Shown here: piece after piece, positions 3,489-29,195 of the stretch
Layout of the letters: the number at the start of each line of letters is the position of its first letter
How positions within the stretch are numbered: position 1 is the first letter of the stretch
NCBI GenBank assembly: GCA_012270795.1
Contig: JAAXHO010000163.1
Location: forward strand, 1 to 33,035
DNA length: 33,035 nucleotides
Source of the DNA: Candidatus Poribacteria bacterium
GTDB taxonomy: Bacteria; Poribacteria; WGA-4E; WGA-3G
Direction of reading: 5' to 3'
Translations under genes and position numbers: made by a program
Notes under the pieces: generated by a model
What the model saw: only the letters and a program-made list of their open reading frames with translations
What the model was told of the DNA's origin: nothing
Database searches by the model: none

Positions 3489-3602
3489 GAGAGCAACCGT
3501 AAACTAACCCTTCACCATAATATTGCTTGAAAACTGAGAAAAATGGTGTATTTCACGCATACACCCTAATGTTCTAATTGTGATGTATTGGAGTGCCGCG
3601 TG

Positions 3603-5429
3603 ATGAAAATCCAACCGAGACTTATACAGACACAGTCACAACAACAAAAAATTGTCATGACACCGAAGTTGCAACAAGCGATTAAGGTGCTGATGATGCC
3701 GCAGCTTGAATTAAGGCAGTTCATTGAACAGGAACTCAACCAAAATCCGCTTTTAGATATTGAGGAGGAGCGTGAAACTGCCCTATCAATGGAAGATTAC
3801 GATCCGAGGCCTGAATGTAACAAACCTGAGGAGAATATTGATAGGGTAGATAGTGCTGTTGATATAGATTGGCATTCAGTTTTTGACGACATGCGGGTGC
3901 CGACTTCAAAAGAAGTTGCTCAATCTGATGATAGTGATGCTCCCGAACCGGATGTTGCTGAAGCACAATCGTTACAGAGTTATTTATACCAACAACTTCA
4001 GTTAGCACCCTTTACAGAAAAAGAACGTTCTATTGGTGAACAAATTATTGGCAACCTAAATGATGATGGTCAACTACAATTAAAACTTTTTTCTCTTCCG
4101 CTTAAATTCGTTTCCGATTTTGAAGCGGGTCATTTATCTGAAGATTTGCAGACAAGTATATCAAAGAAATTATGTAATATAGAAAACGGTAGCAGATCAT
4201 CAAAAACAGACAAAGACAACCGTTATTTTGAGATTGTACAGATAGAACCTACTCTAAAGACTATAGTTTCTAATGCTGGTGGGAAAATTTGGCATATCGT
4301 TGACAAAACAGACAAGGAGAACGTTGACGAGAAAAACAGGAAGACATATACAGTTGTTTGTGAAAATAACGATTTATCTTTATACGAACTTACCATAGAA
4401 GACATTGCGAATAACCAAAAGTGTTCGGTTGCAGAAGTAGAAAAAGTGCTGGAAACAATACAGGATACTTTTGAACCAATTGGCATTGCCTACCGTGATC
4501 TAAAGGAAACACTTAGCATTCAGATTCGAAACCAAGAATCTCAGCAATTTCAACAAAACGGTACATCATTAAATGGAAATGAAGCACCTTTGGCATTAGC
4601 AAAACGTATTATTGAAGACCATTTAGATGACCTCTTAAACAGTAGAATTTCAACGATGTCTCAAGACCTTGGCGTGGAGAGGGACGAGATTATAAAGGCA
4701 TCAAAATGGATAGGGACACTTTCCCCATATCCTGGTCGTTACTTTTCTGATCCCGCCGTCAAAGACTTAGTCAAATCACCTGAAACTATACAAGGAGTCG
4801 TACCAGATATTCAAATCATGGAGATTGATGGTGAATATCAGATCGTTTCAATGGATAATTATATTCCACGTTTACGCATGAATCCAGAATATATAAACCT
4901 AATGCGAGATGACAACAGGAATTTAGATGCTGACGCAAAAATGTGGATTCAACAGAAGTATAATGACGCGATGGATGTACTGAACAGTATTGTCCAACGC
5001 GGGCGTACTATTGAACGGGTCACAGAAGCAATATTTAAAGTACAATCCGATTTCTTGAAACATGGCGCGCAAAGTCTTAAGCCGCTGACACTAAAGACTG
5101 TTGCCGATATGGCAGGTGTTCATGAATCGACGGTGAGCCGCGTAACAAGCAATAAGTATGTACAAACACCGAACGGTACTTACCCACTGAAATTCTTTTT
5201 TAGTAATCAATTAGCAACAACACAAGGCAATTCAGTTTCAGCTGAACATGTGAAATCTGAAATAAGAGATATGATCAGAAAGGAAAATCCAGCAAAACCC
5301 TTAAGCGATCAAATCATAAGTACATCGTTGAAAGAACGTGGGGTCATAGTTGCCAGACGGACTGTTCAAAAATATCGGGAAGAGCTTGGTATCCTATCTT
5401 CACGTCAAAGAAAAAACCTTGAAAAGTAA
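3603..5429 (+). CDS. rpoN: RNA polymerase sigma-54 factor with a large insertion
   Basis: Sigma-54 directs RNA polymerase to -24/-12 promoters and needs an AAA+ activator. Region I (glutamine-rich, MTPKLQQAIKVLMMPQLEL), the acidic region II, the core-binding region, the HTH (TLKTVADMAGVHESTVSRV) and the C-terminal RpoN box (ARRTVQKYRE) are all present. The ATG at 3603 has GGAG 9 bases upstream; a TTG at 3588 is possible but less likely. At 608 residues it is well over the usual 450-500. The excess is a block of about 100 residues (roughly 159-260, DNA about 4077-4382) between NLNDDGQL and YELTIEDIA, which are normally almost adjacent. The insertion is in frame and not low complexity. A candidate target promoter lies at 28443-28458. 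Confidence 0.93.
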   Translation: MKIQPRLIQTQSQQQKIVMTPKLQQAIKVLMMPQLELRQFIEQELNQNPLLDIEEERETALSMEDYDPRPECNKPEENIDRVDSAVDIDWHSVFDDMRVPTSKEVAQSDDSDAPEPDVAEAQSLQSYLYQQLQLAPFTEKERSIGEQIIGNLNDDGQLQLKLFSLPLKFVSDFEAGHLSEDLQTSISKKLCNIENGSRSSKTDKDNRYFEIVQIEPTLKTIVSNAGGKIWHIVDKTDKENVDEKNRKTYTVVCENNDLSLYELTIEDIANNQKCSVAEVEKVLETIQDTFEPIGIAYRDLKETLSIQIRNQESQQFQQNGTSLNGNEAPLALAKRIIEDHLDDLLNSRISTMSQDLGVERDEIIKASKWIGTLSPYPGRYFSDPAVKDLVKSPETIQGVVPDIQIMEIDGEYQIVSMDNYIPRLRMNPEYINLMRDDNRNLDADAKMWIQQKYNDAMDVLNSIVQRGRTIERVTEAIFKVQSDFLKHGAQSLKPLTLKTVADMAGVHESTVSRVTSNKYVQTPNGTYPLKFFFSNQLATTQGNSVSAEHVKSEIRDMIRKENPAKPLSDQIISTSLKERGVIVARRTVQKYREELGILSSRQRKNLEK

Positions 5430-25030: not shown

Positions 25031-25649
25031 TTATATTCTACGCTTATGTTGGTTTGCTTTTGCACGTGCATCTGTAAGATTGGGATCGACAATAGCATGC
25101 AGTGACTTTTCTAACCCCCTCCGTATTTCAGTATGTTCAGGTTTTGAAGCTAAATCCACGTTTTCTAACGGGTCAACACCTACATTTGTGTTCGTGGTCT
25201 CCTGGCCCGCATTCTGCGACGTGTGAGTTGGAGCCGCGCCGTGCGTCTGCTGTACGTCTTGGTGGATTGCCTTTTGTGTTACGCCACCGAGGTAAATCAT
25301 CTAACAAGCGATTGTTAAAACCGAGAAAGCGATCCTTTCCATTGAAGTGTGTGCGTCCACACAGGACGGTCTTATATCCCTCCTTAGTCAAGTAGTCTCC
25401 CCACGTTTTGTGTTTCCGGTCAAGTATTGCCCCTAAATCCCACGCATCAATCTGATGCGGATAGCGTCCTGTCAGCATTGACAAACGGGATGGAGTGCAT
25501 ATTGGACTGTTGCAATAGGCGTTATCAAAGGTGTAACTCTGCTCAGCGAGACGGTCAAGGTTTGGAGTCTGGACAACTGGATGCCCACTGTTCCCCATGA
25601 CAGTTCCAGTATGTTCATCAGAAAATAGAAAGACGATATTCATAATCAT
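25031..25649 (-). pseudogene. Sulfatase with a large internal deletion
   Basis: The N-terminal 155 or so codons (25173-25649) are a normal type I sulfatase start: NIVFLFSDEHTG, the CTPSR motif in ICTPSRLSMLTGRYPHQ whose Cys becomes formylglycine, then RTHFNGKDRFLGFNNRLL and NSHVAECGPGDHEHK. The frame then ends. A different frame (25031-25170) carries a sulfatase C-terminus, DPLENVDLASKPEHTEIRRG with ARAKANQHKRR. A full enzyme would be near 480 residues, so about 300 codons are missing and the join shifts the frame. The remaining catalytic and metal ligands are lost. The start lies three bases after the stop of the upstream lipoprotein gene, with no SD of its own. Confidence 0.8.
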
Positions 25650-25652
25650 TGT

Positions 25653-26558
25653 TTAATCATCGTCGTGATCGTCATCATCATCGTCGTGATCGTGATCATC
25701 ATCATCATCGTGATCATGATCGTCATCGTCGTCATCATCGTCGTCATCAAAACGAAGATTTGGAAAATCCGCTCGGTTTTGCTGGTTTATCCAATCTCTG
25801 AAGAGTTGAATTTGCGCAGCAGTCATCGGTGGACCATGACCAGCAGGAGGCATCCTGCCTGATACCATTTCTTCTACAATATCACTACTGTTGGCATTTC
25901 CAAGTATAAAAACTGACTCTCCTTCGTCGTCACCACTTATAAAACTCTGATATGTTCTGAAATCGAGTCCATCGTATCCATTTGCGTCGTGACATCCAGA
26001 GTAGGCACATCTTGCTGTAAGAATAGGTTGAAGATTTTGGTTAAAGGATGCTTCTGGTTCTGATACATTTCCTGTGGGTGGTTGTTGTGGTGGTTGCACA
26101 GGTGTTGTTGCGGGTGTCTGCTGATTTATCCAATCTCGGAAGAGTTGGATTTGGGCATTGGTCAATGGCGGACCACCTATTGGCATTCTCCCAGAGACGA
26201 TTTCTTCAATTATATCGCTCGACTGTGCATCACCAGCAATAAAAATTGGTCCGGTATCTCCGCCTGCTATAAATGTTTGATATGAACTTAGATCGATGTT
26301 TAGCGGTCCATTTGCGACATGACAACCAGCAAAAGCACATCTTGCTGTCAGTATTGGTAAAAGATTCTGATTGAAGGCAGCTTCACTTTCTGGACTTTCA
26401 ACGCTGCCCATATTCTGATTTTGTGTATCTGAACCTGGATCAGTTCCAGAAGAAACATTATCAGGTGGAAGCACTGTATTTACAGGCGTATCACATCCAT
26501 GAATACAAAACATTAGAACTAAAGCAAACAGAAAAACCCATCGTATATTTGTAAACAT
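25653..26558 (-). CDS. Lipoprotein with two CX4CH cytochrome-c-like domains and a poly-Asp/His tail
   Basis: A lipoprotein signal (IHGC, Cys22) leads to two near-identical domains (about residues 62-147 and 171-260). Each has a heme-type motif with four rather than two residues between the cysteines (CAFAGCH at 74-80, CAYSGCH at 184-190), a distal RMP methionine (M125, M236) and the ending AQIQLFRDWINQQ. They resemble planctomycete-type cytochrome c (PSCyt) domains. The last 31 residues (271-301) are 26 Asp and 5 His, a probable metal-binding or calcium-responsive tail. SD GAGGA lies 7 bases before the ATG. It is downstream of the barrel and single-domain cytochrome genes and is probably part of the same transcript. 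Heme attachment is predicted, not shown. Confidence 0.82.
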   Translation of the reverse strand: MFTNIRWVFLFALVLMFCIHGCDTPVNTVLPPDNVSSGTDPGSDTQNQNMGSVESPESEAAFNQNLLPILTARCAFAGCHVANGPLNIDLSSYQTFIAGGDTGPIFIAGDAQSSDIIEEIVSGRMPIGGPPLTNAQIQLFRDWINQQTPATTPVQPPQQPPTGNVSEPEASFNQNLQPILTARCAYSGCHDANGYDGLDFRTYQSFISGDDEGESVFILGNANSSDIVEEMVSGRMPPAGHGPPMTAAQIQLFRDWINQQNRADFPNLRFDDDDDDDDDDHDHDDDDDHDHDDDDDDHDDD

Positions 26559-26641
26559 ATTAGTATCCTCGTTGTTGAGCAGTTATACCATTTCTATAAA
26601 TTATTGTCTCATTGGACGGTTGTTATCGTAACTTTTCTTTT

Positions 26642-26667
26642 GGACACAAACTGGAAGTTTGTGCTAC
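26642..26667. repeat. CACAAACT-GGA-AGTTTGTG palindrome
   Basis: A perfect 8-bp inverted repeat followed by CTAC, in the 177-base gap between the two cytochrome-like lipoprotein genes. Three related, less perfect copies lie at 29220-29313. Confidence 0.65.
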
Positions 26668-26735
26668 AAAAGAGGCATTAACATTTAGAAATAGTGTTAC
26701 ATTGAATAAATATGAGACTTTATTTTTGATTGGTA

Positions 26736-27152
26736 TTAGTTATCTTTTGCTCCTGCGTTTATCCAGTCAATAATAAGTTGAATTTGTTCTGCATCCAAAT
26801 AAGGCCCGTCAGGTGGCATTTTTTGTTTGACGACTTCCTCAACGAGTTCGCTTTCCTTTGCATTTCCTGCATGAATTAGTGGACCGTGTTCACCACCTTT
26901 TTGTAAAGTCTCATAGGTTCTTAAGTCAACATCATCTGGTCCATCAGCGACATGGCATCCTACAAGTGCGCACTGATTCGTGAGAATAGGAGATATGTCG
27001 GTATTGAATGAGGGTATAGGCCTGTTTCCAGTATCTGGACTGTCAAAGGCGAGACCTAATTCAGTGGCATATTCATCAAAAGTCTTGCCACATCCAATGA
27101 TGAATAATGTAATTCCAAGCAATAATAGAATAATTATTTGAGGGGTGTGCAT
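26736..27152 (-). CDS. Small lipoprotein with one CX4CH cytochrome-c-like domain
   Basis: The signal peptide ends in a lipobox (IIGC, Cys21). The single domain (about residues 50-135) matches each repeat of the downstream lipoprotein: SPILTNQCALVGCH (C61, C66, H67), a KMP methionine (M112) and AEQIQLIIDWINAG at the end. At 138 residues it is complete. The CX4CH spacing is the same as in its neighbour, which argues for a real family trait, not a sequencing error. SD AAGGA precedes the ATG by nine bases. Only 18 bases separate it from the barrel gene upstream, so they are surely co-transcribed. A role in electron transfer or metal handling at the outer membrane is inference from the context. 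Confidence 0.82.
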   Translation of the reverse strand: MHTPQIIILLLLGITLFIIGCGKTFDEYATELGLAFDSPDTGNRPIPSFNTDISPILTNQCALVGCHVADGPDDVDLRTYETLQKGGEHGPLIHAGNAKESELVEEVVKQKMPPDGPYLDAEQIQLIIDWINAGAKDN

Positions 27153-27170
27153 ATTAATTGTTCCTTTTCA

Positions 27171-28226
27171 CTAACGGAAGACGAATTGGCATCCGGCTGT
27201 GAACTGCAATCGGTTCATGAGTTGTATTCCTGTTAGATTTTGGTACACCGGTATCTGAAGCTCAAACGCTAAACGGTTCCGTTGAAGAGGTCCTCTTGTA
27301 AGGGTAGGGATCATAAAATCGGTTGAAATAGCGATGTCAAGTTGCGTGTTTCCCTGGGAATCTATTTGGTGAATTGGACTTCTGTTTTGATTCAACTCAG
27401 GGTCGCTGCTGAACGTCGCTTTATGTGAAAATAGAAGTCTCCCTCCAAATTGGAACCAATTGTTTACACGTTGTGTGCTCCAAGCAGTCACAGTGAAAGT
27501 GTTGCCATGCCGATATTTGCGAGCATTTTGATGTAAGGGTAAGGAACTGAGCAATTGGCTACCATAACTCCAGTCCTCTTTTGTGCCGAAAAGCGTGATG
27601 CCCGGACACGCTTCATAGGAACCACTACCCAGTTGCATCGGGTAAGGTAACATCCGACCGTCATCTCCCGTCTTTGCGATACTCCCAGATGGCAATGAAA
27701 CACCAATGTTCCCGATGAGCGTAAGGTGTCCTTTTTTTAATAGCGACACCTGCGCGTCAAATTTTATATCGCCAAAACCTTCGCTGTCTAAATTATATAT
27801 CCCGACAGATTGTTTTTGATGTCCTCCTTCTTGCTGATATGAACCTTCCATCTGCATAATGTGCTCACGATAATTCATTATTGCCATCAAAGTAATATGA
27901 TCATGTGGAACGTAGATAGCACTGTACATCTGTGTTGACGTGATCATATACTTTGGTGCCAACATATAATCTTTTAGCACATCTGCTGTTTCAAGCGTAT
28001 CTGTGCCAGACTGCAATGCCTGCCAACCTATCACCGTGCCTCGGTAACTGAACATTACATCCCCTGCTTTATGTCCATGGTTGGCTGTTACACCAATAGG
28101 TGCGTCCCCATCAAGGTGAAGTGTTGAGATATCCGCCAAAGTGACAGACAACGTGAGTAGAAAAAGAGAAATACTGAGTGTTACTACCAAAATATTTGGT
28201 TGCCGACAAAACTTTTTGAATAACAT
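27171..28226 (-). CDS. Predicted outer-membrane barrel protein (phenol MetA-degradation/transporter-like family)
   Basis: A signal peptide (LVVTLSISLFLLTLSVTLA) precedes a histidine-containing opening (APIGVTANHGHKAGDVMFSY). A beta-rich body of alternating strands and tight turns ends in aromatic QFVFR, as expected of an outer-membrane barrel. LPYPMQLGSGSYEACPGITL is a hallmark of the transporter family often labelled phenol MetA degradation, which tends to sit near copper or cytochrome genes. That family link is from memory of the motif and should be tested. The start is the ATG at 28226: the SD AAGGAG directly touches the alternative ATG at 28232 and is six bases from this one. It heads the cytochrome operon, with a leader of about 200 bases and a sigma-54 promoter beyond. 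Confidence 0.75.
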   Translation of the reverse strand: MLFKKFCRQPNILVVTLSISLFLLTLSVTLADISTLHLDGDAPIGVTANHGHKAGDVMFSYRGTVIGWQALQSGTDTLETADVLKDYMLAPKYMITSTQMYSAIYVPHDHITLMAIMNYREHIMQMEGSYQQEGGHQKQSVGIYNLDSEGFGDIKFDAQVSLLKKGHLTLIGNIGVSLPSGSIAKTGDDGRMLPYPMQLGSGSYEACPGITLFGTKEDWSYGSQLLSSLPLHQNARKYRHGNTFTVTAWSTQRVNNWFQFGGRLLFSHKATFSSDPELNQNRSPIHQIDSQGNTQLDIAISTDFMIPTLTRGPLQRNRLAFELQIPVYQNLTGIQLMNRLQFTAGCQFVFR

Positions 28227-28252
28227 AATCATCTCCTTATTTATGGTGAATT

Positions 28253-28366
28253 TCAGAATGTAGAATTAATTGTATAATCTAACGTGAGTTTGATAAATCA
28301 AATTTTTGAATTCGGCAGAATACGCCAAATCAAGAAATCAACGGTATGAATGCCATTTAGGCATTC
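28253..28366. repeat. Repeat copies in the leader of the barrel gene
   Basis: TCAGAATGTAGAATTAATTG (28253 on) repeats 21744-21769 identically over 26 bases. A GAATGCC-ATTTA-GGCATTC hairpin (28348-28366) with the same flanks (AAATCAACGGTAT before, CCCCG after) as those at 17889 and 21202 follows. Both lie between the sigma-54 promoter and the gene, so they would be transcribed as 5' UTR. Confidence 0.7.
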
Positions 28367-28442
28367 CCCGTGCGGCGTTCTGCATTGGTTAGGAAATCGC
28401 CCCTACCCCCGGAAAGATAAATTCCGTTAATTTAGTATAATG

Positions 28443-28458
28443 TGCAATAATTGTGCCA
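28443..28458 (-). promoter_or_regulatory. Sigma-54 (-24/-12) promoter of the barrel-cytochrome operon
   Basis: On the minus strand TGGCAC (28458-28453), five bases and TTGCA (28447-28443). This matches the conserved core of the RpoN consensus, with GG and GC exactly 12 bases apart. Predicted start of transcription is near 28432, about 205 bases before the ATG at 28226. No other full match was found in the gene-free regions I read. Confidence 0.8.
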
Positions 28459-28508
28459 CCTCATGCAGCCAGCAAACATCTATATTTTGGTATGATTTTT
28501 CGACTATT

Positions 28509-28547
28509 TGTTCAATAAATGGACAGTCCTGTTCAAAAAATGAACAG
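28509..28547 (-). promoter_or_regulatory. Two tandem dyads, probable activator (enhancer) sites
   Basis: CTGTTCA-N5-TGAACAG (28529-28547) is a perfect 7-bp dyad. TGTTCAATAAATGGACAG (28509-28526) is a weaker copy 21 bases away, two turns of the helix. They centre about 86 and 106 bases upstream of the predicted sigma-54 start, the usual place for a sigma-54 activator. The regulator is not in the window. Confidence 0.65.
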
Positions 28548-28590: not shown

Positions 28591-28983
28591 CTATAACTGC
28601 AACAAAATCAATGGTTGAACTGTTATGTTTTGATAAGTTTCTTCGGTGACTTGTTCGGAGAAAAATGGGTTGAAAAACGTGTCTGCTGTAGCTAAGAAAT
28701 CGGGTAGGTTTAAACCCATATAGTGTCCATTAACGTCATCAATTTCAGTAACAACTTGTCGTAATTTGGTACGTCCTGCAGTAGAGAGTGTTCGCAACGG
28801 ACGCAGCATTCGCATGTGATATTTGATGAGCGATGCAGATACTTGAATCAACCCTTGCAAGAACAGGCGATATGTATCTTCTGCTTGATGCCATAGTCCT
28901 TCCCATGCTTCGTGTGCTTCCCACCAATATGCGAAGTTATAGAGATCAACGCCGTATAAGTAATCCTCATTCTGTTTCCACAT
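28591..28983 (-). CDS. DUF309 family protein; conserved N-terminus lacks a normal start
   Basis: The DUF309 signature is clear: YWWEAHEAWEGLWHQ, followed by FLQGLIQVSASLIKYHMR. The family is small, helical and of unknown function. From the first ATG (28983) the product is 130 residues. The same frame stays open upstream to 29172 and reads sequence that looks family-like (FPPYRHIPGVTPHPIRD, then GHSYG), but contains no ATG, GTG or TTG. Either the true start is a rare codon (ATC at 29160 or ATA at 29169) or the 5' end has been lost to the repeats at 29196-29313. There is no SD near these. The product from ATG 28983 may still be made. Confidence 0.75.
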   Translation of the reverse strand: MWKQNEDYLYGVDLYNFAYWWEAHEAWEGLWHQAEDTYRLFLQGLIQVSASLIKYHMRMLRPLRTLSTAGRTKLRQVVTEIDDVNGHYMGLNLPDFLATADTFFNPFFSEQVTEETYQNITVQPLILLQL

Positions 28984-29195
28984 TTCTGGTGTGAGCGGGT
29001 TCTCTATAGTTTCCTCTTCTGTTCCGTAACTATGTCCGAGCGGGTCCCGTATTGGATGGGGTGTTACCCCTGGAATATGTCGGTATGGTGGAAACGGTTT
29101 TTGTGGACAATAGCGATTCCAATTTGGTTCAAAAGGTTGTGGTTGTTTGTGTGTTTCGATATTTTGTATTTTCAGAGATTTACCCCTTTATCCGA

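Follow-up and report, generated by a model that had tools for sequence, protein, structure and literature searches.

The window analysed here is a whole contig of 33,035 bases from a 5.18-Mb genome (G000) of Candidatus Poribacteria, an uncultured and often sponge-associated group of bacteria. Its minus strand holds a sigma-54 promoter and two genes for cytochrome-like lipoproteins, here called lip1 and lip2. Comparison with relatives indicates that the promoter is real and conserved and that at this locus it belongs to the lipoproteins. The same promoter core with its upstream dyads recurs before other genes, and these matches indicate a sigma-54 regulon of one Poribacteria order that is real, conserved and previously undescribed. 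Our analysis suggests, with a probability of roughly 0.6, that this NtrC-type/sigma-54 regulon induces surface uptake and electron transfer, perhaps for iron. The comparison set consists of public metagenome-assembled genomes of Candidatus Poribacteria, labelled G002, G009 and so on, including sister genera (g2, g3 and g4) and a sister family (f4).

The promoter and its lipoprotein genes

The features that carry this result are the following.

28443..28458, minus strand: sigma-54 core TGGCACAATTATTGCA, TGGCAC-N5-TTGCA, with GG at 28457/28456 and GC at 28445/28444
28529..28547, no strand: upstream dyad A TGTTCATTTTTTGAACA (28530-28546), CTGTTCA-N5-TGAACAG, with perfect 7-bp arms and its centre at about -106
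28509..28525, no strand: second dyad B TGTCCATTTATTGAACA, TGTCCA-N5-TGAACA, with one mismatch and its centre at about -85
26736..27152, minus strand: lip1, one-domain PSCyt1 lipoprotein with CALVGCH and an MP ligand; PF07635 at 33.2 bits, cut-off 22
25653..26558, minus strand: lip2, two-domain PSCyt1 lipoprotein with CAFAGCH and CAYSGCH, each with MP at +50/51; PF07635 at 41.1 bits in two stretches, cut-off 22
25656..25751, minus strand: poly-Asp/His C-terminal tail of lip2, read from the sequence

The core is an exact consensus match, as an earlier note on this DNA had claimed. It fits GG-N10-GC in a TGGCAY-N5-TTGC context and is the only exact match in the window, and the GG and GC positions give a predicted transcription start at about 28432. 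The two tandem dyads that the note had placed at about -86 and -106 were also recovered, with starts 21 bp apart, and dyad A is probably an activator site. Across the whole genome the exact core has 30 matches versus 2 with the reversed pattern. About 20 of the 30 sit within coding sequence, and often the gene is a WD40 gene, in which the repeats spell the core by chance; the core count alone was therefore rejected as proof. The many exact cores that lie in WD40 genes (among L002-L031) are a trap for motif counting.

The -24/-12 core and the dyads are conserved across orthologous loci in related genomes, G013 being the exception. In G002, G006 and G015 the region between the neighbouring DUF309 gene and the lip genes shares this core, and the two dyads lie at -88/-89 and -67/-68 relative to it; G005 and G003 have core and dyads upstream of lip2-type genes. 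In the corresponding region of G009 all 16 bases of the core are the same, and a palindromic repeat separates it from the dyads. In genera g2, g3 and g4 the dyads and the core (mostly TGGCAT) stand upstream of PSCyt1 lipoproteins despite other neighbours of the lip genes, so that core and dyads precede such lipoproteins in four genera in total. The dyad consensus in relatives is TGTYCA-N5-TGRACA. A second promoter, which the note had thought possible in the 177-base gap between lip1 and lip2 (26559-26735), was not found: the gap holds an inverted repeat but no sigma-54-like site, and sigma-70-like matches in this region are no more frequent than in shuffled sequences.

Three tandem open reading frames of 353, 138 and 301 amino acids encode a barrel-like protein, treated below, lip1 and lip2. 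The last two were correctly described as a one-domain and a two-domain CX4CH lipoprotein, the latter with the Asp/His tail, and the N-termini of both are lipobox-like. Orthologues of lip1 have about 65-88% identity, and homologues of lip2 were found across the family. Nearly every lipoprotein domain examined has CX4CH followed by MP 48-51 residues on, and an alignment of 12 domains shows no variation at the two Cys, the His or the Met. Almost all of the family's two-domain homologues, and several one-domain proteins, carry an Asp- or Asp/His-rich tail. The PF07635 matches above cut-off, the Cys-Cys-His motif and the downstream Met are shared with PSCyt1, the planctomycete-type cytochrome c domain. 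Unlike typical members, however, the lip proteins have CX4CH rather than CXXCH, are small stand-alone lipoproteins rather than large DUF1549/DUF1553 proteins, and carry Asp/His tails.

A direct sequence search of solved structures with lip1 gave no match, and a profile search identified FoxE as the nearest solved relative (E 3.7e-8, over the cytochrome domain). FoxE of Rhodobacter ferrooxidans SW2 is a bihaem Fe(II) oxidase that takes electrons from Fe(II), has CxxCH motifs and works with FoxY and FoxZ (PMC10654088). It has two cytochrome domains, as lip2 does. It differs in that lip2 is a predicted lipoprotein with an Asp/His tail, and in that the lip domains have CX4CH in place of its CxxCH. 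We predict that the domains of lip1 and lip2 are class-I-like cytochromes with one haem each, on lipoproteins of the outer membrane or the cell surface.

The lip proteins could instead be free of haem, their CX4CH domains and Asp/His tails serving as metal-binding scaffolds, e.g. for Ca, Zn or Cu. The non-standard CX4CH spacing and the conservation of the Asp/His-rich tail across genera would agree with such a role. The axial-ligand MP motif at about +50, the four invariant residues, the PSCyt1 matches above cut-off and the presence of a cytochrome-c assembly protein family in the genome all speak for haem, and we regard the haem-free explanation as quite improbable.

A sigma-54 regulon in one Poribacteria order

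We searched for further sites using the core together with a near-perfect dyad as the pattern and the reversed pattern as the control. Three matches turned up in this genome; the totals, summed from tabulated counts, were 70 over 36 genomes and about 194 over 85 Poribacteria genomes, and each reversed control gave none. All but one of the matches fall within one order of Poribacteria. The regulon set in this genome comprises the window locus, a TonB-dependent receptor (C237), a toroid (C287) and two WD40 genes (C258 and C192).

We retrieved 60 stretches at the first-search matches and at two further sites of this genome; the lip loci described above were not among them. In 20 stretches the longest gene downstream of the core and near it encodes a TonB-dependent receptor of about 770 amino acids; it encodes a WD40-type protein in 13, a 370-residue squalene-cyclase-like toroid in 10, a PSCyt1 lipoprotein in four and a TolB-like propeller in another four. 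The remaining stretches have mixed downstream genes, and some of these matches are probably due to chance. The 21-bp offset between dyads is far commoner at the retrieved sites than any other offset.

The receptors and the lipoproteins are directly joined in sister family f4, where the promoter, a receptor and then PSCyt1 lipoprotein genes form one operon in G044, G043 and G046. A second receptor follows the first behind the same promoter in G044, G047, G041 and G045. The pairing of an outer-membrane barrel with cytochrome lipoproteins that the earlier note had proposed holds in this family, with TonB-dependent receptors as the barrels, but not for the barrel of the window.

Among the well-known sigma-54 regulons with paired activator sites, those of the NtrC/AtoC/ZraR type resemble the present one: they have a -24/-12 core and, about 70-110 bp upstream of it, activator sites in the form of paired 17-bp inverted repeats. 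They differ in the site, here TGTYCA-N5-TGRACA, and in the targets, here TonB receptors, PSCyt1 lipoproteins, WD40 proteins and toroids. We know of no regulon that matches both this site and this target set. Our literature search found no paper on sigma-54 control in Poribacteria and none joining sigma-54, TonB-dependent receptors, cytochromes and enhancer-binding proteins, within the open-access literature, where absence is not proof. Neither Poribacteria nor cytochromes appear in the text of a sigma-54 survey across phyla from 2025, which calls the sigma-54 control of TonB in Flavobacteriia unconfirmed (PMC12316311).

Two side observations concern individual sites. The toroid gene of this genome (G000:C287, L273:18351-19490) encodes a secreted 370-residue alpha/alpha-toroid that resembles the C-terminal domain of squalene-hopene cyclase, and the same dyad and core stand before it in many genomes. 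Intergenic sigma-54 cores also lie upstream of GroEL-like and ClpB-like genes (L004 and L005, on G000:C111), in line with the sigma-54 control of chaperones published for Bacteroidota and Planctomycetota (PMC12316311).

Functional reading of the regulon

We infer the following course of events. An NtrC-type enhancer-binding protein would bind the tandem 17-bp dyads CTGTYCA-N5-TGAACA, 21 bp or two helical turns apart, and would contact the sigma-54 polymerase by looping and open the promoter. The ancestral target of the promoter at the window locus would be lip1-lip2, and the other targets of the regulon would be TonB-dependent receptors, WD40 propellers and alpha/alpha-toroid proteins. The receptors may use TonB to take up a substrate that contains or binds a metal and is probably related to iron, and the lipoprotein cytochromes may pass electrons to or from this substrate at the surface.

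The genome encodes eight to nine enhancer-binding proteins, among them, as in NtrC-type systems, receiver-type activators with a Fis-like helix-turn-helix. Identification of the activator through autoregulation had to be rejected, because no dyads lie near any activator gene of this genome. One candidate emerges by linkage, namely C253:9088-10512, an NtrC/AtoC-like response regulator with an AtoS-like kinase gene upstream. In G044, G047 and G041 about 9-11 kb separate its orthologues, which have an identical ILGINRNTLH recognition segment, from the receptor operon. Another gene of this genome, L040 (G000:C194:24328-24801), encodes a receiver-type activator whose GAFTGA loop has been lost, so that it probably cannot act on sigma-54.

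Among receptor models, those for heme/haemoglobin and for siderophores come closest to the regulon's TonB receptor. This receptor resembles the heme/haemoglobin receptors (TIGR01785, TIGR01786; PhuR) over its full length and has the FRAP motif. In such receptors a His is expected between the FRAP and NPNL motifs.

Several observations weigh against the proposed regulon and its role in uptake and electron transfer. The receptor scores below both heme/haemoglobin NCBIfam subfamily cut-offs (192 versus 323.75 and 179 versus 316.85 bits), and none of the seven receptors checked has a His between the FRAP and SPDL motifs (FRAPSLNDTTAVEVTNEG..SPDL). The spacing CX4CH of the lip domains is not the standard CXXCH. 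The structure model of lip1 is helical and of middling confidence (predicted local distance difference test score, pLDDT, of 77), and its fold matches, which include hydrazine synthase alpha, FoxE and small cytochromes, are weak. G013, which has the closest lip2 (81%), lacks such a promoter between DUF309 and lip1, and so the conservation is not universal. The three genomes in which the candidate activator is linked to the receptor operon belong to one genus, and the chance of such proximity is about 8%, given about 20 activators per 5 Mb; the C253 protein is therefore a lead only. Since the receptor is nearest to heme and siderophore models yet below their cut-offs and without the His, we hold TonB uptake with electron transfer, probably iron-related, with moderate confidence.

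The main rival assigns the electron transfer to polymer or sugar oxidation. The regulon would then serve carbohydrate or polymer breakdown, with the TonB receptors importing glycans and the PSCyt1 lipoproteins accepting electrons from secreted dehydrogenases. PSCyt-type domains do lie beside DUF1549/DUF1553 and DUF1501 proteins at the G009 locus that holds the barrel orthologue, and the lip locus is flanked by sulfatase and UDP-glucose dehydrogenase genes. However, the resemblance of the receptor to haem, haemoglobin and siderophore receptor models points elsewhere, the sulfatase has decayed in this genome and is not a neighbour of lip in sister genus g2, and a non-exhaustive reading of the operons revealed no partner for glycan uptake. 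We consider a role in glycan breakdown unlikely.

Returning to uptake and electron transfer for a metal, metal handling by the lipoprotein unit, as suggested in the earlier note, is plausible. Its most specific form can be put forward only tentatively: a redox-coupled uptake and handling, reductive or oxidative, of iron or another metal at the outer membrane under sigma-54 and its enhancer sites, with TonB receptors, lipid-anchored CX4CH cytochromes and Asp/His tails that would collect the metal.

The inserted barrel gene and its surroundings

The remaining features of the locus, and the sigma-54 gene itself, are listed here.

27171..28232, minus strand: predicted barrel-like outer-membrane protein, Phenol_MetA_deg (PF13557), likely start 28226
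28280..28441, no strand: dispersed repeat of about 162 bp, which makes up most of the leader and begins directly after the core
28591..29160, minus strand: DUF309 gene, conserved neighbour upstream of the promoter
25037..25649, minus strand: sulfatase remnant, conserved neighbour downstream, intact in relatives
3588..5429, plus strand: rpoN, PF04552 at E 7.5e-58, single match; the only sigma-54 gene found in the genome

The order on the minus strand is UDP-glucose dehydrogenase, DUF309, sigma-54 dyads and core, repeat, barrel, lip1, lip2 and sulfatase remnant. In relatives of the genus it runs from UDP-glucose dehydrogenase through DUF309 to lip1 and/or lip2, often a sulfatase, and then a metallo-beta-lactamase/cupin gene on the opposite strand.

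The earlier note had taken barrel, lip1 and lip2 as a sigma-54-controlled surface unit. The promoter before the cytochrome-like lipoproteins stood up to comparison, but the barrel as a member did not: none of the 20 other lip loci examined has it. The only close orthologue of the barrel (82%) is in G009, 1.67 Mb from the lip genes of that genome and among genes for PSCyt2/PSD1, DUF1501, PPC, Rieske and cytochrome b proteins. None of the barrel homologues examined has core and dyads upstream, and the barrel was rejected as the owner of the promoter on this ground. DNA alignment places the two parts of the locus separately in G009. The window is 86% identical to the G009 barrel locus over 28277-27169, and the G009 lip locus matches the window on the DUF309 side down to about 28582 and again from 27132 on, in lip1. 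Partial matches to the dispersed repeat number more than 50 in this genome, and further matches occur throughout the genus; like the barrel, the repeat stands between promoter and lip1 in this genome only. These comparisons indicate that the barrel is a recent insertion behind the promoter in this one genome and is outside the conserved unit. With barrel and repeat inserted there, the sigma-54 promoter probably now drives the barrel gene.

A dedicated three-gene surface module, with the barrel as exit or anchor for the cytochromes, is by contrast very improbable, and as a conserved unit it is already refuted by the lip loci that lack the barrel. The 18 bp between barrel stop and lip1 start, the tandem arrangement and the redox genes around the G009 orthologue are what would favour it. 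The assignment as an outer-membrane barrel is itself only partly secured. The match to Phenol_MetA_deg is marginal (24.1 bits, cut-off 22), two homologues also lie just above the cut-off of this family, whose own function is putative, and a single-sequence structure model (pLDDT 31) is useless for judging a beta-barrel fold.

The flanking genes fit a rearranged locus. The sulfatase remnant has lost about 240-250 internal codons and also shows a change of frame. DUF309, a 189-codon frame without a stop, has ATC at the position of the relatives' ATG (G009 has ATG), and its next in-frame ATG is at 28983. The dispersed repeat has a strong predicted hairpin, and its 57-bp centre has dozens of copies in this genome and is found through the genus as well. 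rpoN lies on the same contig as the promoter of the window, about 23 kb away.

The window locus clearly illustrates the insertion of a gene downstream of a regulated promoter that was already in place, and it cautions that neighbouring genes in one genome need not form a unit. The regulon, defined from sequence alone, has an unusual target set that ties TonB receptors to surface cytochromes in these bacteria. Its predictions are directly testable, as they involve a single binding site, a few promoters in each genome and a two-component activator.

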